Below are positions 26,093-39,612 of a stretch of DNA of 47,679 bases, one piece after another. The stretch spans positions 1 through 47,679 of the forward strand of contig JASUSO010000007.1 of NCBI GenBank assembly GCA_030446015.1. The letters are read 5' to 3'. The position numbers and the translations under genes were made by a program. This DNA is from Methanobacteriota archaeon. GTDB taxonomy: Archaea > Halobacteriota > Methanomicrobia > Methanomicrobiales > Methanoculleaceae. A model generated the notes under the pieces. The model worked only from the letters and a program-made list of their open reading frames with translations, did not search any database and was not told the origin of the DNA. Position 1 is the first letter of the stretch. The number at the start of each line of letters is the position of its first letter.

Positions 26093-27706
26093 ATGACCCC
26101 ACTTATTACGGTGAAGAACCTCTGCATGGAGTTCAACGGGACTGCCGTGCTCAAAGACATCAACTTCGAGGTGGCGGAGGGAGAGACCGTCGGCATCATT
26201 GGAAGAAGCGGCGCCGGCAAGACCGTTCTCATGCATCTTATGCGGGGTGTCGACCAGCCCCCGACGCGGGGTGCCGTCATCTATCACGTCGCCGTCTGCG
26301 GTGGATGCGATCACGTCGATGTTCCGAGCGCGGCGGGGAAGCCGTGTCCTGTCTGCGGGGGCACGCTCGAACCGGCGGATATCGATTTCTGGGCCGACGA
26401 GAACGCAATGATGAAACGGCGGATCATGCGGAGAACCGCCATCATGTTCCAGCGGACGTTCGCGCTCTACGGCGACGACCGGGTGATCGAGAACGTCCTG
26501 CGGGCGCTCGACGACGTCGGCTACCCGAGCGAGAAGGCCGTCAGCAGGGCAGCCGACCTGATCGACCAGGTCAGGCTCTCCCACCGAATGATGCATATCG
26601 CCCGCGACCTCTCCGGCGGCGAGAAGCAGCGGGTGGTGCTCGCCCGACAGCTCGCGAAGAACCCGTTCCTCCTCTTTGCGGACGAACCGACCGGGACGCT
26701 CGACCCGGAGACCGCAACGCTCGTCCACCGGATGCTCATCGAGAGCGCCCAGGCGAACGACATGGGCATGGTCGTCACCTCCCACTTCTCAAACGTCATC
26801 AAGGATGTTGCCGACCGGGCAATCCTCCTTGAGGACGGCGAGATCAAGGAGATCGGCCTCCCGGCGGATGTCATCGGCCGGTTCATGGAGAACTACAGCG
26901 ACGCCGCAGAGCGCCAGACCGCGGAGGTCGGCGAGAAGATCCTGGTCGCCCGAGACGTGGTCAAGCGCTTCCTCTCGGTCGACCGGGGTGTCGTCCGGGC
27001 GGTCAACAGCGTCTCGTTCGATGTCGGCGAGAAGGAGATCTTCGGGATCATCGGCAAGAGCGGGGCGGGCAAGACGACCCTCTCCCGAATCATATCCGGG
27101 ATCCTCGAGCCCACCAGCGGCGAGATGAACATCCGGATCGGCGACGACTGGATCGATATGACGAAACCCGGCATCGAGAATCGCGGCCGTGCGAAGGGAT
27201 ACATCGGGCTCCTCCACCAGGAGTACGACCTCTACCCGCACAGGACGGTGCTCGACAACCTCACCGACGCCATCGGCCTTGAGTTCCCGAAGGAGCTTGC
27301 GATGAGGAAGGCGATCATCACCCTTGGAATGGCCGGGTTCACCCCCGAGAAGAGCAAGGAGATCCTGAACCGCTACCCGGGCGAGCTCTCCGAAGGCGAG
27401 AAGCACCGGGTGGCCCTCGCCCAGGTGCTGATCCGTGAGCCGCTGCTGGTCGTTCTCGACGAGCCGACCGGCACCATGGACCCGATCACGAAGATCGACG
27501 TGAAACACTCGATCCTCCACGCCCGCGAGGAGATGGACGAGACATTTATTGTCGTCTCGCACGATATGGAGTTCGTGCGAGATATCTGCGATCGCGTCGC
27601 CCTCATGCGGGGCGGAAAGATCATCAAACTGGGGCCGACGGAAGAGGTGCTCGCCCATCTCACCGAGGACGAACGAACGGTGATGGGGGGCGGCGGAGCC
27701 GCCTGA
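26093..27706 (+). CDS. atwA: Methyl-coenzyme M reductase activation component A2 (dual ABC ATPase)
   Basis: Two intact NBDs: GRSGAGKTVL...LSGGEKQRV...LLFADEPTGTLD and GKSGAGKTTL...LSEGEKHRV...VLDEPTGTMD. CxxC...CPVC insertion (CGGCDHVDVPSAAGKPCPVCGG) in the first NBD; adjacent mmp genes. Confidence 0.92.
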   Translation: MTPLITVKNLCMEFNGTAVLKDINFEVAEGETVGIIGRSGAGKTVLMHLMRGVDQPPTRGAVIYHVAVCGGCDHVDVPSAAGKPCPVCGGTLEPADIDFWADENAMMKRRIMRRTAIMFQRTFALYGDDRVIENVLRALDDVGYPSEKAVSRAADLIDQVRLSHRMMHIARDLSGGEKQRVVLARQLAKNPFLLFADEPTGTLDPETATLVHRMLIESAQANDMGMVVTSHFSNVIKDVADRAILLEDGEIKEIGLPADVIGRFMENYSDAAERQTAEVGEKILVARDVVKRFLSVDRGVVRAVNSVSFDVGEKEIFGIIGKSGAGKTTLSRIISGILEPTSGEMNIRIGDDWIDMTKPGIENRGRAKGYIGLLHQEYDLYPHRTVLDNLTDAIGLEFPKELAMRKAIITLGMAGFTPEKSKEILNRYPGELSEGEKHRVALAQVLIREPLLVVLDEPTGTMDPITKIDVKHSILHAREEMDETFIVVSHDMEFVRDICDRVALMRGGKIIKLGPTEEVLAHLTEDERTVMGGGGAA

Positions 27707-27716
27707 GGTGCACGTA

Positions 27717-29243
27717 ATGGAGATCCACCTGGACGGTAAAGCGATCTCGGTTCCGGAGGGGTCCCGGCTCGGCGACATCCTCCCCGAGCGGGACGAACAA
27801 CTCAGCGTCGCCGTCATCCGCCCGGCGCTCGTCGAGGATGAAGCCGAGTCGCAGGAGGTCAGGTTCGCCACTCCGGCGGGAGACCTGGTCGTCGAGGTGG
27901 CGAAGACCGCGGCGGTCTCCCGTCTCCTCCAGCCGGATCTTGCAGAACGGCTCCGCCTGCACTGGCAGGACCGCTACGCCGCCGCTTTTGGGCCGTTTGA
28001 GTCCGACGTCCGCCCGACACGCCGCCCGGGCCGGTACGAGCGCGGCGACGTCATCCTCGGGTGCGGTGGCTACGATCCCTCCCAGTCCTACCTGATCTTT
28101 GCACGCATGAGGCATACCGCCGACTACGGCGCCCCGGAGGATGGTGGCGTCATCGGCAAGATCGTCACCGGCCGCGGGCTGATCGACCGGCTTGCCGACG
28201 GTGACCGGATCACCGGGGTCGAGCGTGTCTTCCGGCGCGTCGACCGCGCAAACGTCGTCGTCACCCGTGACGCCGGCTTCCCGCTCGAAGACGGGATGCA
28301 GATCGTCTCCTACGTGGAGGCGGAGGTGCAGGGGTTCGGGGAAGACGGGATCGATACCGGCACCGCCCGGAGCGTTGAGCATTTCCTTCTCTCCGTCCAG
28401 GACGGCAGATTCAGGGTAGGCCGCTCGAGCAGCACCTACGTTGCCGACACGCACCTGGTTCCGACCCGGGTTCCGGCGGAGTTCTCCGGCCCGAGGCTTG
28501 AAGGCACCGTCACCGTCAGGACCGCCGGGAAGTCCTCAGGAGGCGTCTACATCTATACCCAGGGCGTCTCGGCAAGCCCGGCGCACACCGTCGTCGGGAG
28601 AGTCGTCCACGGCATCGAACTCGTCAGGTTTGCCGGAGAGGGCGATACCTTCGCCATCCGTGCGGATCCGGAACGGTTCGATCTCGTCGGCCTCTCGCTT
28701 GCCGAGGCGGAGGCGGTCGCCGCCCGGCGCGGCGTCTCCCTCACCGCCGACGCGACCGGGGACGATCGCATCGTCGTCGCCCAGACCCCGGCAACGACGC
28801 TCGAGGTGCTGGCCAGCGGCGAGGCCCGGCTTGAGACGGTGCCTGCCGACCACGTCGTCAGCATCACCCTCGACGAGGCGGCCGCGCCCCGGTCGGTCAC
28901 GATCTTCCGCGAGGTGACCGGGCTCAAGCACCGCAGCGTCGGGAAGATGCCGCTCGTCTTCGTCTTCGAGGACGTCTTCCTCTTCAAGCCGAAGATTGGC
29001 AAAGGCGTCGGGATCATCCCGGAGAACACCCCGACCGGAGAGGTGCCGGCCTACACCCTCGCGATGACGAACGACTCCCGGCGCGGCGCGGGCATGGTCG
29101 GCATCCGGACCACGCCGAACGCCGAGTTCGGCCCGACCTCCGAACCCCTCACCGGCACGAACGTCATCGGGAAGGTGCTCGATGCGGGGAACCTTGCCGG
29201 GATGCGCGAGGGAGAGACGGTATACGTGAAGGAGGTGAGGTGA
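27717..29243 (+). CDS. mmp3: Methanogenesis marker protein 3
   Basis: MEIHLDGKAISVPEGSRLGDILPER...; IGKGVGIIPENTPTGEVPAYTLAMTNDSRRGAGMVGIR; position in the mmp cluster. Confidence 0.88.
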   Translation: MEIHLDGKAISVPEGSRLGDILPERDEQLSVAVIRPALVEDEAESQEVRFATPAGDLVVEVAKTAAVSRLLQPDLAERLRLHWQDRYAAAFGPFESDVRPTRRPGRYERGDVILGCGGYDPSQSYLIFARMRHTADYGAPEDGGVIGKIVTGRGLIDRLADGDRITGVERVFRRVDRANVVVTRDAGFPLEDGMQIVSYVEAEVQGFGEDGIDTGTARSVEHFLLSVQDGRFRVGRSSSTYVADTHLVPTRVPAEFSGPRLEGTVTVRTAGKSSGGVYIYTQGVSASPAHTVVGRVVHGIELVRFAGEGDTFAIRADPERFDLVGLSLAEAEAVAARRGVSLTADATGDDRIVVAQTPATTLEVLASGEARLETVPADHVVSITLDEAAAPRSVTIFREVTGLKHRSVGKMPLVFVFEDVFLFKPKIGKGVGIIPENTPTGEVPAYTLAMTNDSRRGAGMVGIRTTPNAEFGPTSEPLTGTNVIGKVLDAGNLAGMREGETVYVKEVR

Positions 29244-29704
29244 TGGCTGAATACACCCCGAAATACGTGGGCACGGTGACCAAGTACGTCTTCGTCGAGT
29301 CCCCGACCATGACTCCCGGCGAGCTCGCGCTCAGGGCCTACGAGGCCTCCGAGGGCGTCCTCATCAAGGAGACGTGCTTTGGGCTGCAGGTGACGGGCGA
29401 ACCGGAGGCCGTCGACCGCCTCATCGAGGAGATCCGCTCGTTCGACCCGACCCACATCTTCGTCAAGGACCGGGGGTTTCCGCCCGGGGATCCGCGGCGC
29501 TGCCGGGCGAACCTCGGCGGAGCGAGGCCGGGCTACCTCGGTCACGAACGGGAGTTCCGCATTCTGCGCTACATCACCCGCGGGCTTGAGGAGCTCGGCC
29601 GGGGTGAGGTACGTGAGGAGGAACCAGCATCGCCCGCACGCCGGAAGCGATCGTTACTTGATATCAAGCGACTACAAGAACTGATAGATACAGAGGAGCC
29701 CTGA
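29243..29704 (+). CDS. mmp6: Methanogenesis marker protein 6
   Basis: HIFVKDRGFPPGDPRRCRANLGGARPGYLGHEREF; position in the cluster. Confidence 0.88.
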   Translation: MAEYTPKYVGTVTKYVFVESPTMTPGELALRAYEASEGVLIKETCFGLQVTGEPEAVDRLIEEIRSFDPTHIFVKDRGFPPGDPRRCRANLGGARPGYLGHEREFRILRYITRGLEELGRGEVREEEPASPARRKRSLLDIKRLQELIDTEEP

Positions 29705-29709
29705 ATAGA

Positions 29710-30177
29710 ATGGCAAAGGTGTTTATCTACCCTGCAACGAGCCTCATCCTCTCCGACCTGGTTGCCCGGTTCGGTCATAAACCGCTCGGTGCAGCCCTTG
29801 GAATCCGGGAGAGGATACAGACCGCCGGGGTAGACTCCCCGCCCCTGCAGATCACTCCCGAAGACCCAAAGCGCGGCCTGAAGTATGCGGCCGTCGAGGT
29901 TCCGTCCGGTGTCCGGGGACGGATGGCGATCTACGGCCCCCTCATCGAGGAGGCCGATGCCGCGATCATCGTCACCGAGGCCGACCTTGCGTTCGGGTGC
30001 ATGGGCTGCGCCCGCACCGACGAGCTGATCCTCTTCTCCCTGCGCCAGAGCGGGATCCCGATCCTGGAACTGGAGTACCCAAGAGACGAGGAAGAGGGCA
30101 TCCGGTTCGTCGCCGCCGTCAAGAAGTTCCTCGACGGTCTCCCGAAGGAGGAGTCGAACAAGGAGGGTGAAGCATGA
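29710..30177 (+). CDS. mmp5: Methanogenesis marker protein 5
   Basis: [26 protein letters not shown]...; position in the cluster. Confidence 0.88.
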
Positions 30178-31415
30178 GCGACCGGAAGGTGCGGATCGCC
30201 CAGCTCTCCTGCGGGGCGGAGTACAGCGGCGTCCAGAAGGAGATCTACGAGGCCGCCGAGTCGGTGGGCGCGGAGGTCTTCTTCCCCGATATCGCTCTGG
30301 CCGATGTGGAGCGTGCGGTCAAGAAGTTCGGGCTGGATGTCAAGAGCGCCGACTTGAAACTGATGATCGCCCGGGCGCTTGCCCTGGTGGAAGGGAAGGT
30401 GGAGGCGGACGGGGTCTTCATCGGCACCTGTTTCAGGTGCGCAGAGGCGGCGATCGTCAGAAACGAGCTGCGGCGCTACATCCCCGAGCACTCGAAGCTC
30501 TCGGTGGTGAGTTACTCCTTCACCGAGCGGACGACCGCGGGGACCCTCCTCACCAGGATGGAGGCCCTGACCACCATCGCCCGCCGGAGAGCGCTCCTTG
30601 CCCGTGAGGAGCAGACCGGGATCACGATGGGCATCGACTCGGGTTCGAGCACGACGAAGGCCGTCGTGATGAAGGACAACGTGATCGTCGGCACCGGGTG
30701 GCACCCGACGACCGAGGTGATCAAGAGCGCCGAGAGCGCCGTCGCGGACGCGCTCGCGATGGCGGGCCTTGCCCGCGAGGATATCCAGGCCATCGGCACC
30801 ACCGGATACGGGCGGTTCCTGATCGGAAAGCACTTCGGGGCCCAGCTCATCCAGGAGGAACTGACGGTGAACTCGAAGGGCGCCGTCTACCTCGCCGGCC
30901 ACCAGCGGGGCTCCGCGACCGTCATCGATATCGGTGGGATGGACAACAAGGCGATCAGCGTCATCGACGGCATCCCCGGGACCTTCACGATGGGCGGGAT
31001 CTGTGCCGGGGCGAGCGGCCGGTTCCTGGAGATGACCGCAAAACGGCTCGGCGTGGATATCACCGAGCTCGGCCCCCTCGCGATGAAAGGGATTGGAAAG
31101 AACGTCCCGATGAACAGTTACTGCATCGTCTTCGGGACGCAGAGCCTGGTGAACGCGCTCGCCGCCGGCTCCTCGCCGGAGGACGTCGCGGCCGCGGCCT
31201 GCCACAGCGTTGCCGAACAGGTCTTCGAGCAGCAGCTGCAGGAGGTCGACATCAAGGAGCCGGTGATCATGGTGGGCGGGACATCCCTGATCGAGGGGCT
31301 GGTCTATGCGATGGGCCAGCTCCTGCAGACGGAGATCGTTGTCCCGCACCACTCGCAGTACATCGGCGCGGTCGGGTCCGCCCTGCTCGCGTCGGGCTTC
31401 ATCAAGGGAGAATAG
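30174..31415 (+). CDS. mmp15: Methanogenesis marker protein 15 (ASKHA/acyl-CoA dehydratase activase-like)
   Basis: [56 protein letters not shown]. Confidence 0.9.
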
Positions 31416-32000
31416 ATGCCCCCGTTGAACTACTTCGTGGTCGAGTCGCCGGACGAGGTCGGGAGGGACGCCTACGAGCGGGTCGCAGGCGACGTTCTCC
31501 AGGACCTCGATCTCATCAAGGTGATCGACCGGCTGCACATCTACGTCGACCCGAAGGTGCCGATCTTCATCGCCGCCGGGCTCCTGCGGCATATGCCGCG
31601 TGAGATCCGCGTCGCCGACTTTGCCAACGTCAACCGCGGCGAGAAGGAGATCGTCCTCGATATCGGCGATGAGACCTATCTTGCGCCGCTCCTCCAGAAA
31701 CTCTGGGTTATCTACGGCAAGGAGAACGTCGACCAGCCCGACAGGTTCACCGTCGTCCTCCCGGCAGGGGTTGCCGGCGAGGAAGACCTCGACCGGCTGG
31801 TGGTGGCCGATCCGAGCGAGACCCTCTACAAGGACGTCATCTACGCGCTCCAGTACATCGCACCGGAGGGGTTCAAGGTCCGCCGCCAGTACATCCGGGA
31901 CGGGAAGTTTTACTACGTGGCGAGCGAGGATACTCTGCCGCCTGACATCGTGGAGACGGCGGTCGTGCCGCTCTTTGAGAAGATGGGGGTGACGCTATGA
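31416..32000 (+). CDS. mmp17: Methanogenesis marker protein 17
   Basis: Size (about 194 aa) and position between mmp15 and mmp7; VADFANVNRGEKEIVLDIGDETYLAPLLQKLW. Confidence 0.85.
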   Translation: MPPLNYFVVESPDEVGRDAYERVAGDVLQDLDLIKVIDRLHIYVDPKVPIFIAAGLLRHMPREIRVADFANVNRGEKEIVLDIGDETYLAPLLQKLWVIYGKENVDQPDRFTVVLPAGVAGEEDLDRLVVADPSETLYKDVIYALQYIAPEGFKVRRQYIRDGKFYYVASEDTLPPDIVETAVVPLFEKMGVTL

Positions 32001-32938
32001 CGACACTGGTGCCGGTGACCTACAAGGGAGGCGTCTACCGGCACGACGAGATCATGGACCTGATCGACGACCTCGGGGGCTACGTCGTCCAGAAGCACGT
32101 CATGGCCCAGGATGTCGTGCTCCAGTCGTTCGTGCCGCGCGACGACCTCGAGATGATACGCCGGATCGCAAAACCGCTCGCCGGCGAGGTGATCGAGGCC
32201 CCCCTCGTCGGGACGGAGATCGCCGTCGTGAGCCCGAGCCTTGAGATCCATCACCTCCCCCACATCTCCTGCGATGTCGCCGAGTACCTCCGGCGGTCGG
32301 GCGCGAAGACCAACATGGTCGGGCTTGCGCGGGGCTTTGGAAAACGGATTGCGAATTTAAACGACGAGGAGCGGGACGTCATCAACGAGCACGATCTCGC
32401 CGTCTACGTCCTCGGCAACTTTGAGGAGTGCATCCGGCAGAAGTTCCCGGCGATCCGGCGGGAGATCCGCGTGCCGATCGTGGTGACCGGCGCGCCCGAC
32501 CGCGAGACCCTGATGCGGGCGATCGACCCGCCCGTCGAGGGGTACGTGGGCGGGATCGGCAGGATCATGCACCGGTTCAAACGCCCCGAGGAACTCGCGA
32601 AACTCGATGAACTGGTGGACGAGGTCTCCCGCGTCCTGGATGCGCGGCGGGATGCTCTCGCAAAAGACCCACTCTCCGTCTTCCCGCCCCGCCTGATGGC
32701 GATCATCGAGGAGCAGATCCACGAGGTCACCATGCTGACGCACCCGACGCCGGTGACCGCCCAGATGGAGGGCCTCCGGGTGAAACTCCCCTACGACTCG
32801 TATGCCGACGACGTGCGGTCGCTTCCGGTCACCGAAGGGGTGACGGTCGGCGATATCGCCGACGTCACGCCGTCGCGAATGCGCAACTACATATTGATTC
32901 GGATTAAACCTTTCTCGGAAACGAGAATACTGGTGTAG
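31997..32938 (+). CDS. mmp7: Methanogenesis marker protein 7
   Basis: VTYKGGVYRHDEIMDLIDDLGGYVVQKHVMAQDVVLQSFVPRDDLEMI...; position in the cluster. Confidence 0.86.
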   Translation: MTTLVPVTYKGGVYRHDEIMDLIDDLGGYVVQKHVMAQDVVLQSFVPRDDLEMIRRIAKPLAGEVIEAPLVGTEIAVVSPSLEIHHLPHISCDVAEYLRRSGAKTNMVGLARGFGKRIANLNDEERDVINEHDLAVYVLGNFEECIRQKFPAIRREIRVPIVVTGAPDRETLMRAIDPPVEGYVGGIGRIMHRFKRPEELAKLDELVDEVSRVLDARRDALAKDPLSVFPPRLMAIIEEQIHEVTMLTHPTPVTAQMEGLRVKLPYDSYADDVRSLPVTEGVTVGDIADVTPSRMRNYILIRIKPFSETRILV

Positions 32939-35236: not shown

Positions 35237-35944
35237 TCACTCCCCTCCCTCCTGCGGGCAGACGCCCCCCTTCTTTCGGAGCCCCCTCCCTGCATACGCC
35301 GCAAGAATGACCGCGAGGATGCCGGTGACGAAAATGCCGTCGAAGATCCCTGCGCCCCCGATGGTGAGGACGGTCGGCCCGTCCCCGGTGAGCGCTGAAA
35401 AGACCTCGGGGTCCGCGAGGTTGAAGATATCGGCCCCGAGCAGGGTGCCCATCGTCCCCCCGGCGTAGGCGATGCCGGGAGCGGCGCGGCAGCCGCGGGC
35501 GAGGAGGAGCCCCGTTACGGCGCCTGCGAGGGGTGCGACGTAGAACGGCATCGTGATCCCGAGGCCGGGGACGGGTGTTGCAGCGGCGTAGGCGACGACC
35601 GCCACGATGCCGACGGCGGTGAGGGACTTCGGCCGCGAAACGCGACCCCGCCCGACCATCTCGATGGTCACGAAGAGGGGGATCACGGCCCCACCCACGT
35701 TGACCGCGATGACGTCTTCTCCTACCGGGATGAGCGGGATATCGATAAGGCTCCCGACCAGCGCCCCTGCGGTCACCAGCACCGCCTGGTAGAACCGGAG
35801 CCCGATCGACTCAAAGACCCCCTCGCTGATGAGGAAGAGGTTGAATATGACCAGAACCGGTATGAGAACCGCTAACGCAACGAGGATCTGTTCCGGGCTG
35901 AAGGGAACCGGGAGAATCGCTATCGCGGGCAGCTCGGTCTCCAT
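35237..35944 (-). CDS. DUF1614-type membrane protein
   Basis: Multi-pass protein; VNVGGAVIPLFVTIEMVGRG...AYAGGTMGTLLGADIFNL. Confidence 0.75.
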   Translation of the reverse strand: METELPAIAILPVPFSPEQILVALAVLIPVLVIFNLFLISEGVFESIGLRFYQAVLVTAGALVGSLIDIPLIPVGEDVIAVNVGGAVIPLFVTIEMVGRGRVSRPKSLTAVGIVAVVAYAAATPVPGLGITMPFYVAPLAGAVTGLLLARGCRAAPGIAYAGGTMGTLLGADIFNLADPEVFSALTGDGPTVLTIGGAGIFDGIFVTGILAVILAAYAGRGLRKKGGVCPQEGGE

Positions 35945-36223
35945 AGGTCGGAGATACCGGTAGTTTATATCATAAATAGTTTCACGGCCCGCTCCCGAAC
36001 GACTTCGATCTCACGGTCCCCCGGCCGGTCGGTGCTGCCCGACCCGGCCCGCTCCATCACCTCCAGAATGATGCATATTTCAATGATTATGTAAAAGGGA
36101 GAGTTGAGAGGAAATAGAAATCCCAAATTACGTATTTTATATTCATTTTGTAATAGATATATTCATATATGCGCAACCGGAAATAGTGTTGAAGCAATAG
36201 TTCCTTCCCCGGATCGAGCAACA

Positions 36224-36288
36224 GGCGCCTGACAGCAACTGTCGTGCGCCGCCGCTCACGGAGATGTCCCATCGGTGTGAATCCGATG
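36224..36288 (+). promoter_or_regulatory. Structured leader region with two strong hairpins
   Basis: 36224-36250 GGCGCCTGACAG-caa-CTGTCGTGCGCC (12-position stem with one mismatch and one G.U); 36270-36288 CATCGG-tgtgaat-CCGATG. Lies upstream of the 36360 gene. Confidence 0.4.
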
Positions 36289-36359: not shown

Positions 36360-37079
36360 ATGACTGCCTTTACCGTTGAGGACCTTATCCGGCGTCTGGA
36401 TCGGCTCCAGGCGAGAGGTCCGATCCCGTTTGACGTCAAGAGCGGAGAGATATTCGGGATTCTCTGCCCATGCGGTCAGGATCGGCAGACTCTGATTGCC
36501 ATTCTCATGACGACGCTCTTTCCGGTTCCCGGGTTTGCCGAGCCTTCACCACTTGCGGTTCTCGGCAACCTCGGGGACGTGCGCAGAAGCATGGGTATCG
36601 TCCTCCCCGAGTCGGTGCTCGACCCTGCGCTGACCGGCAGGGAGAACCTGGACTTCCACGCCCGACTGCACGGTCTGGGCGACGACCTCAGGACGAGGAG
36701 GATCCGCGAGGTCCTTGACCTCTTTTGCATCGCCGGAAGCGCCGATGCTCCTGTCGAGACCTACTCTCCCGCCATGCTGCAGCACCTTGAGATCGCCCGG
36801 GCTTACCTCACGCACCCGTCGGTCCTCTTCCTTGCCGAACCGACGGCCGGCCTGGATGATGCCGGGCGCCGGGAGACCTGGGACCTTCTCCGGCGGCTGA
36901 ACCGCGAACGAAGGGTGACGATCATCTTCACGACACACGATGTGGAAGAGGCGGAGGCGATCTGCACCCGCGTTGCGGTGGTCGACCGCGGTGAGGTCGT
37001 TGCCCTGGACACGCCGGAGACCTTCCGTACGGTGATGGCCCTCGACGACGCGCCGATCGAGTTCGACAACCCCGCCTGA
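36360..37079 (+). CDS. ABC-transporter ATPase-like protein with degenerate catalytic motifs (putative pseudo-ATPase)
   Basis: GEIFGILCPCGQDRQTLIAIL in place of GxxGxGK[ST]; signature TYSPAMLQHLEIA in place of LSGGQ; Walker B VLFLAEPTAGLD (D to A); H-loop TTHDVEEAE kept. Confidence 0.85.
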   Translation: MTAFTVEDLIRRLDRLQARGPIPFDVKSGEIFGILCPCGQDRQTLIAILMTTLFPVPGFAEPSPLAVLGNLGDVRRSMGIVLPESVLDPALTGRENLDFHARLHGLGDDLRTRRIREVLDLFCIAGSADAPVETYSPAMLQHLEIARAYLTHPSVLFLAEPTAGLDDAGRRETWDLLRRLNRERRVTIIFTTHDVEEAEAICTRVAVVDRGEVVALDTPETFRTVMALDDAPIEFDNPA

Positions 37080-37142: not shown

Positions 37143-37565
37143 ATGGCCGTTCACCTCCGTCTCCTGCTCGCGCTCCTGGTCGCTGCTACGTTTGCGCTGG
37201 CCGGCGGGTGTCTCGACGGCAGCCCGCCGCCCGACACCCAGGTTGTCCGGACGATCACGCCGGACGAAGCATTCGCCATGATAGAGGAGCGGGGGGACGA
37301 TCCGGACTTTGTCATCGTCGATGTCCGGAGACCGGAAGAGTTCGCCGCCGGGCACATCCCGGGCGCGATCAACATCAATTCGGCGGGGTTCTCGGAGCAG
37401 ATCGACGGCCTTGATACGGAGGCGACCTACCTCATCTACTGCCAGTGGGGCGCGCGAAGCGCCGGTGTCCGGGAGCTGATGCGTGATGCCGGGTTCCGTG
37501 AGGTCTACGAGATCGAGGGCGGAGTGAGTGCCTGGGAGGCGGCCGGGCTCCCGGTGACCGGCTAG
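37143..37565 (+). CDS. Rhodanese-domain lipoprotein
   Basis: Lipobox ALAGGC; FVIVDVRRPEEFAAGHIPGAININS; active site YCQWGARSAG. Confidence 0.9.
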   Translation: MAVHLRLLLALLVAATFALAGGCLDGSPPPDTQVVRTITPDEAFAMIEERGDDPDFVIVDVRRPEEFAAGHIPGAININSAGFSEQIDGLDTEATYLIYCQWGARSAGVRELMRDAGFREVYEIEGGVSAWEAAGLPVTG

Positions 37566-37651: not shown

Positions 37652-39277
<1,626 letters not shown>

Positions 39278-39550
39278 TCACTCGATCTTTGCCAGGATGT
39301 CTTTGAACGGGACGAACACGTACGTCTCAGAGTCGATCTCGAACGTATCCGAGGAGTAACCCCCGTACAGAACATGGTCACCGGGGTTCAAGGGGAGACT
39401 GGATCCGTCGTCGCGCTGTCCTACCGCAACGACGGAACCTTCTTTTCTCCCCTCCCGTGCGGATTCGGGGATGTAAATGCCGCTTTTCGTAACCTCTTCT
39501 CTTCGTATGGGTTTGATAAGGACTCGTTCTCCGATTGGGATAATCTCCAT
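39278..39550 (-). CDS. groES: Co-chaperonin GroES
   Basis: MEIIPIGERVLIKPIRREEVTKSGIYIPESAREGRKEGSVVAVGQ...DHVLYGGYSSDTFEIDSETYVFVPFKDILAKIE. Confidence 0.92.
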   Translation of the reverse strand: MEIIPIGERVLIKPIRREEVTKSGIYIPESAREGRKEGSVVAVGQRDDGSSLPLNPGDHVLYGGYSSDTFEIDSETYVFVPFKDILAKIE

Positions 39551-39612
39551 GAGCCTATCACCTTCAGAGAGTTTTTGCAACAGGATCGTAAGGTCGCCTA
39601 AATATTTAAACA

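Follow-up and report, generated by a model that had tools for sequence, protein, structure and literature searches.

Genomic context

The window analysed here is a stretch of 47,679 nt (contig JASUSO010000007.1) from an archaeon of the Methanoculleaceae. On its forward strand, positions 36360..37079 encode an ABC-type protein of 239 aa, hereafter pseudo-NBD. Homology begins at the ATG at 36360 and not at the in-frame upstream ATG at 36264; the chain contains no hydrophobic segment and is that of a soluble protein. The divergent neighbour on the reverse strand (35237..35944) encodes a DUF1614 membrane protein with seven hydrophobic segments. Downstream on the forward strand follows a rhodanese-domain gene (37143..37565), whose product carries a lipobox-like signal, LAGGC, at its N-terminus. 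Most orthologue loci share one arrangement, with the mmp genes first, then asparagine synthase, DUF1614 (−), pseudo-NBD (+) and rhodanese (+), and the rhodanese gene lies downstream at both the Methanofollis loci described below and most Methanoculleus loci. In genus g25 (L155, L156), an unrelated opposite-strand gene of about 330-350 aa separates pseudo-NBD from rhodanese. Positions 37652-39600 encode a bacterial-type (group I) GroEL together with GroES, here in a methanogen; some Methanoculleus genomes have the pair inserted between rhodanese and w40120, and others lack it at this place.

The genes upstream of the locus are methanogenesis markers. The window holds a complete run of the methyl-coenzyme M reductase (MCR) activation genes A2, Mmp3, Mmp6, Mmp5, Mmp15, Mmp17 and Mmp7 (26093-32938), among which component A2 is a non-transport tandem ABC ATPase.

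Upstream of the gene lies a conserved AT-rich, archaeal TATA-like block (36134..36170, forward strand), which is the probable promoter of pseudo-NBD and may alternatively serve the divergent DUF1614 gene. In Methanoculleus, 36134-36240 comprises this block together with another conserved, CCTTCCCCGAATCGGATAACGG-like stretch; they lie about 120-230 nt before the start of pseudo-NBD, a distance that implies either that the leader is long or that a small RNA has gone unrecognised. A riboswitch or other RNA leader was considered and rejected, as an Rfam search of the upstream region, run up to E 10, gave no match and the conserved block looks promoter-like.

Motifs of the pseudo-NBD

The protein matches the Pfam family ABC_tran (PF00005) above the cut-off (E 5.8e-10), and profile and fold place it in the ABC superfamily, the fold being taken from a model in which the N-terminal lobe has low confidence. 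By direct reading, Walker A (residues 36-44, 36465..36491) is CPCGQDRQT, with Lys replaced by Arg, the first Gly by Cys and the sixth-position Gly by Asp; the third Gly is retained. The signature reads YSPAM (36762..36776), and Walker B reads VLFLAEP (36822..36842), in which Asp is replaced by Ala and the catalytic Glu is retained. Neither the consensus Walker A GxxGxGK[ST], nor the Walker B Asp, nor an LSGGQ-type signature is present in pseudo-NBD, and its orthologues share these departures. The first-pass annotation, made from the sequence of the window, had read these three motifs correctly, and the open reading frame indeed runs through 239 aa without a frameshift.

That annotation had also held the damage to be confined to the catalytic motifs. 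These are degraded as described, but the changes extend further. The Q-loop is gone as well (GIVLPES, 36594..36614; VFQEP changed to VLPES, with Gln83 replaced), the A-loop Phe has become an invariant Leu13, and the chain ends before the C-terminal extension of DrrA. The ABC-beta lobe has been altered in both halves, residues 1-30 (36360..36449), which contain Leu13 and an invariant ARGPIP segment, and residues 57-74 (36528..36581; family consensus AERSPLAILGNLGDV). The permease is also lost from the locus. The D-loop reads GLDDAG. The H-loop TTHD (36930..36941) is intact in the window copy, as had been noted, although 6 of 33 orthologues have lost its His. The label 'ABC transporter ATP-binding protein' given to this gene by automatic annotation is misleading.

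Conservation in the family

Orthologues were found in 30 of 35 Methanoculleus genomes (65-90% identity) and in four of the five other genomes of the family (G109-G112, 57-59% identity), which are placed in other genera; G110 is Methanoculleus sp. FWC-SCC1. No orthologue found contained an internal stop, and all full-length orthologues inside the family are degenerate. We compared 33 full-length orthologues with 74 intact relatives. Position 36 is Cys in 33/33 and Gly in 99% of the intact relatives; position 13 is Leu in 33/33 and Phe in 81% of them. Position 42, Lys in 74/74 intact relatives, is Arg in 30, Lys in two and Gln in one of the orthologues. Position 159 (Asp in 74/74) is Ala in 32 and Val in one, and position 137 (Gly in 67/74) is Pro in 31/33. 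The Walker B Glu is retained in 30/33. Positions 38, 83 and 138 vary freely in the clade, and codon parsimony indicated drift at the P-loop positions 38, 41 and 43. By the same method, Cys36 has undergone at least five codon changes and Ala159 at least four, both with no amino-acid change. Because 33 independent sequences carry these substitutions, chance and sequencing or assembly errors are excluded as their origin; the substitutions are common to the orthologues, a point that the first-pass annotation had wished to see checked.

Of the 34 family genomes with pseudo-NBD, 33 also have DUF1614. The exception is G109, an 81% complete genome in which it was not found; in G111, 16 kb separate the two genes. 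In the complete genomes G002 and G024, which represent one nested lineage, DUF1614 and pseudo-NBD have been cleanly deleted together and the site is otherwise intact. Among the other Methanoculleus genomes without a match, the contig ends at the site in G050 and G046, and G023 is an incomplete draft. Behind the conserved upstream block of G046 (L159:5832-6322) comes sequence that, on reading, gives the impression of the end of an IS200/IS605-type element, and then the contig end; the pseudo-NBD gene may be interrupted there. The MAG UBA77 (G016) contains two copies of the locus (L041 and L046), 73-74% and 99-100% identical to the window, probably as a result of contamination by the window's species.

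Selection and shift of constraint

A GY codon model on the codon tree of 30 orthologues yielded an omega of 0.188 for pseudo-NBD. For the same 92 species pairs, the median pairwise omega was 0.225 for pseudo-NBD and 0.226 for the intact DrrA paralogue; the flanking genes ranged from 0.11 to 0.35. Evolution of the gene is thus not neutral. The first-pass annotation had regarded it as a repurposed pseudoenzyme, a view at odds with intact orthologues in sister species combined with neutral dN/dS; neither was found, and the pattern of selection supports that reading. Catalytic residues are lost throughout a monophyletic set of orthologues and purifying selection follows the loss, while the hallmarks of a pseudogene, stops or frameshifts or a neutral dN/dS, do not occur in pseudo-NBD.

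Constraint within the protein was compared between pseudo-NBD and the intact DrrA paralogue in 14 shared species. In the catalytic motifs, pN was 0.107 for pseudo-NBD and 0.000 for the paralogue. The ABC-beta lobe (residues 1-30 plus 57-74) showed the reverse, with a pN of 0.064 against 0.187 in the paralogue, a threefold stronger conservation (difference with a 95% interval of −0.177 to −0.069; 0/5000 lobe-versus-rest permutations). The remainder of the protein was about equal (0.110 and 0.101). Omega was 0.13 in pseudo-NBD versus 0.46 in the paralogue for residues 1-30 and 0.14 versus 0.30 for residues 57-74. The helical subdomain, at 0.25 versus 0.27, is under average constraint only. The ABC-beta, or adenine-binding, lobe thus appears to have been rebuilt, and no other part of pseudo-NBD is now under stronger constraint. 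Antisense overlapping genes were rejected as the cause of this N-terminal conservation, since dS is not lowered there (0.45 and 0.59 versus 0.47 overall).

These data bear on the view that the gene is a functionless relic in slow decay. Motif loss is progressive over the clade and the gene has been deleted in one nested lineage, as such a relic would lead one to expect. Against it, omega equals that of the intact gene in the same species, internal stops are lacking in all orthologues, the upstream block is conserved, the new residues are frozen despite synonymous turnover, and the N-terminal lobe is more constrained than in a working paralogue. Neutral decay was rejected on the basis of omega, the turnover at the frozen residues and the constraint on the lobe, and we consider a slowly decaying relic very improbable.

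Origin and order of the losses

Four Methanofollis genomes (G082, G067, G077 and G072) have DUF1614, a 313-aa NBD (counted from the homologous start), a DrrB-type permease and rhodanese at the same syntenic site. In G082, whose locus was read completely, the NBD has intact motifs (GPNGAGKTT, SGGM, LDEP). This NBD scores 366.6 bits with the drrA profile TIGR01188, above the cut-off of 312.45 bits, and the permease scores 213.9 bits with drrB, just below the DrrB cut-off. The best NCBIfam match of pseudo-NBD is also drrA, with a score of 191.9 bits that falls below the cut-off, a likeness that reflects common ancestry with the NBDs of DrrA/DrrB (ABC-2) exporters. In two further Methanofollis genomes (G032 and G062), DUF1614 adjoins rhodanese with no ABC genes between them. 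From Methanofollis sites that hold or lack the NBD and permease (L144:11669-12834, L145:8988-10276) it appears that the exporter pair comes and goes. Compared with the Methanofollis exporter, the Methanoculleaceae locus lacks the permease and the C-terminal ~75 aa of the NBD.

In the protein tree, the pseudo-NBD clade is monophyletic (support 1.0) on a long stem of 0.71, and this long branch does not group with the Methanofollis-locus NBDs, which figure among its best outside matches. As the sequence does not single out the Methanofollis NBD as the sister, descent from that exporter rests on synteny, which points to a DrrAB exporter as the putative ancestor of the locus. Horizontal gain into either the Methanofollis or the Methanoculleaceae lineage may have occurred.

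Two genomes of a sister genus represent a less advanced state. G110 (L155) reads CPNGSGKST in Walker A, VFQEQ in the Q-loop, YAPGQ in the signature and LLMAEP in Walker B; G111 (L156) reads CPNGYGKRT, VFQEE, YTPGM and LLLAEP. Both retain the Walker A Lys and the Q-loop Gln and have lost Gly36, the Walker B Asp and the signature Gly. The presence of this Lys suggests that Walker B and the signature were probably lost earlier. On the tree, the simplest order would have Gly36, Asp159 and Gly137 lost first, Lys42 later, and the Q-loop Gln last and repeatedly.

The history of the site also bears on a possible part of pseudo-NBD in MCR activation, in which the A2/Mmp3/Mmp7/Mmp17 machinery would have recruited it and the rebuilt lobe would hold or gate A2 or MCR without ATP. 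Only 3.4 kb separate the A2-Mmp3-6-5-15-17-7 cluster from pseudo-NBD downstream of it, the cluster includes in A2 another ABC ATPase with no role in transport, and A2, Mmp3, Mmp7 and Mmp17 belong to a solved activation complex (PMC12176620). That complex has no such subunit, however (PMC12176620). AsnB and DUF1614 intervene between the cluster and pseudo-NBD, and an exporter probably stood at the site ancestrally. The link is unlikely because G024 and G002 keep mmp genes (with A2 in G024) without pseudo-NBD and because in G111 the gene is displaced to about 20 kb from the cluster. We give both the accessory role as such and the recruitment in this form a very small chance. If true, pseudo-NBD would be a lineage-specific regulator of methanogenesis in the Methanoculleaceae.

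Predicted structure and possible partners

The best solved relative is the DrrA-type protein TM_1403 (PDB 4yer; sequence E 1.2e-45). Foldseek aligned the pseudo-NBD model to 4yer with E 2.1e-21 and TM 0.81, the N-terminal lobe of the model being of low confidence. The AlphaFold2 model is good for residues about 81-210 (mean pLDDT per block of 80 and up), so the fold that the first-pass annotation took to be kept is borne out for this part of the chain. The statement does not extend to residues 8-21 and 53-71, where pLDDT fell below 50; an intact relative modelled with the same alignment rows reached 84-97 over residues 1-70. The low values fit a rebuilt lobe, or alternatively may mark a limit of the prediction.

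This region matters for whether pseudo-NBD could be a nucleotide sensor, in which hydrolysis is gone and bound nucleotide still switches an interaction. Some nucleotide contact is possible, since the Walker B Glu (30/33), the D-loop Asp and mostly the H-loop His remain; GxGK is retained in Walker A of the two sister-genus genomes, and the exchange of Lys for Arg preserves the positive charge. Methanoculleus, however, has lost the first P-loop Gly, usually the Gly at position 6, the A-loop aromatic, the Q-loop Gln and the Walker B Asp, the P-loop positions 38, 41 and 43 drift, and the model no longer gives the adenine-binding lobe a standard fold. We regard a sensor as improbable.

The well-modelled part raises another alternative, that the dead NBD is a regulatory or dominant-negative subunit that throttles a resident DrrB-type permease, on which it docks, or an intact DrrA, with which it pairs. 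Pseudo-NBD derives from a DrrA NBD, its permease-contacting helical subdomain keeps its fold (pLDDT 89-97) and a TGRENLDFH core, and many genomes also have an intact DrrAB paralogue. But the strongest constraint lies outside the helical subdomain, and pairing with an intact NBD would leave the heterodimer no competent site, since Walker A/B and the signature are both dead. In 11 genomes with pseudo-NBD, moreover, the closest intact paralogue has no match at E<=1e-45. No permease gene adjoins pseudo-NBD in any genome inspected, as had been noted for the window, and all DrrB-type permeases in G000, G003, G020 and G111 adjoin their own NBD, so that no orphan permease was found in these four genomes as a partner in trans. 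We hold this subunit role to be unlikely.

Discussion

We are highly confident that the gene encodes a pseudo-ATPase that is conserved and goes back to an exporter NBD. The events leading to it can be proposed as follows. A two-gene DrrAB-type exporter would have stood between the DUF1614 and rhodanese genes, and the Methanoculleaceae ancestor would have lost the permease gene and the C-terminal extension of the NBD. The orphan NBD would then have fixed Gly36>Cys, Asp159>Ala and Gly137>Pro, followed later by Lys42>Arg and loss of the Q-loop. ABC proteins without Walker A/B and signature motifs are not expected to hydrolyse ATP, and none is expected of pseudo-NBD, which has lost them. The product would be a soluble pseudo-ATPase that does not hydrolyse and most likely does not bind ATP, and might serve as a scaffold or regulator that binds via its rebuilt N-terminal lobe without ATP.

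The sequences directly show that the gene is conserved, that its substitutions are shared, that purifying selection acts on it, that constraint has shifted and that its locus is syntenic with an intact exporter. From this evidence we infer the loss of ATP binding, the role as a binding module and the partnership with DUF1614. With no orphan permease, no working site in a mixed dimer and constraint concentrated in the rebuilt lobe, an ATP-independent binding protein appears most likely among the functions considered; taken by itself, this mechanism is tentative and has not quite an even chance in our estimate. Among candidate partners, the 7-TM protein DUF1614 comes first, as its gene is divergent, occurs in 33/34 carriers and was lost together with pseudo-NBD, although the association may be mere adjacency. 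Taken as a whole, we think it reasonably probable that pseudo-NBD is an exporter-derived, stand-alone pseudo-ATPase working as an ATP-independent binding module with DUF1614 as its foremost candidate partner.

Unlike the DrrA NBDs, pseudo-NBD has no C-terminal extension, no nucleotide-site motifs and no neighbouring DrrB-type permease gene. Degenerate-site heterodimeric exporters (TM287/288, TmrAB, BmrCD, TAP, MsRv1273c/72c) likewise have replaced catalytic residues under selection, and their degenerate site still binds ATP and faces a consensus site (PMC12038006, PMC7756269). Conserved deviation from the consensus has been argued to imply an acquired function (PMC7756269). In these exporters one site is degenerate and the NBD is linked to its own TMDs and paired with a consensus NBD; in pseudo-NBD, Walker A/B and the signature are lost in one TMD-less chain with no partner gene at the locus.

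Soluble, non-transport ABC ATPases such as ABCE/ABCF, SufC, Rad50/SMC and MutS have working ATP sites. The same window encodes another soluble non-transport ABC ATPase, MCR component A2, which holds ATP at both sites (PMC12176620). Pseudo-NBD differs from all of these in having no retained ATP-site motifs. Its pattern of lost catalytic residues and a scaffold under purifying selection is that of pseudokinases and pseudo-GTPases, with which it would share binding or regulation as the probable function; among pseudoenzymes it is a stand-alone ABC type with a traceable exporter ancestor. We found no direct precedent for a stand-alone degenerate ABC ATPase in the literature searched, although one may still exist.

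Degenerate ABC sites are known as halves of working transporters, whereas here a whole, permease-free NBD is kept by selection. Present-day genomes show putative stages of the transition, from an intact exporter at the site through lone NBDs with the Walker A Lys to forms that are dead throughout. Pseudo-NBD is thus a tractable case of a motor subunit turning into a non-motor protein, and it is held across a family of important biogas methanogens.
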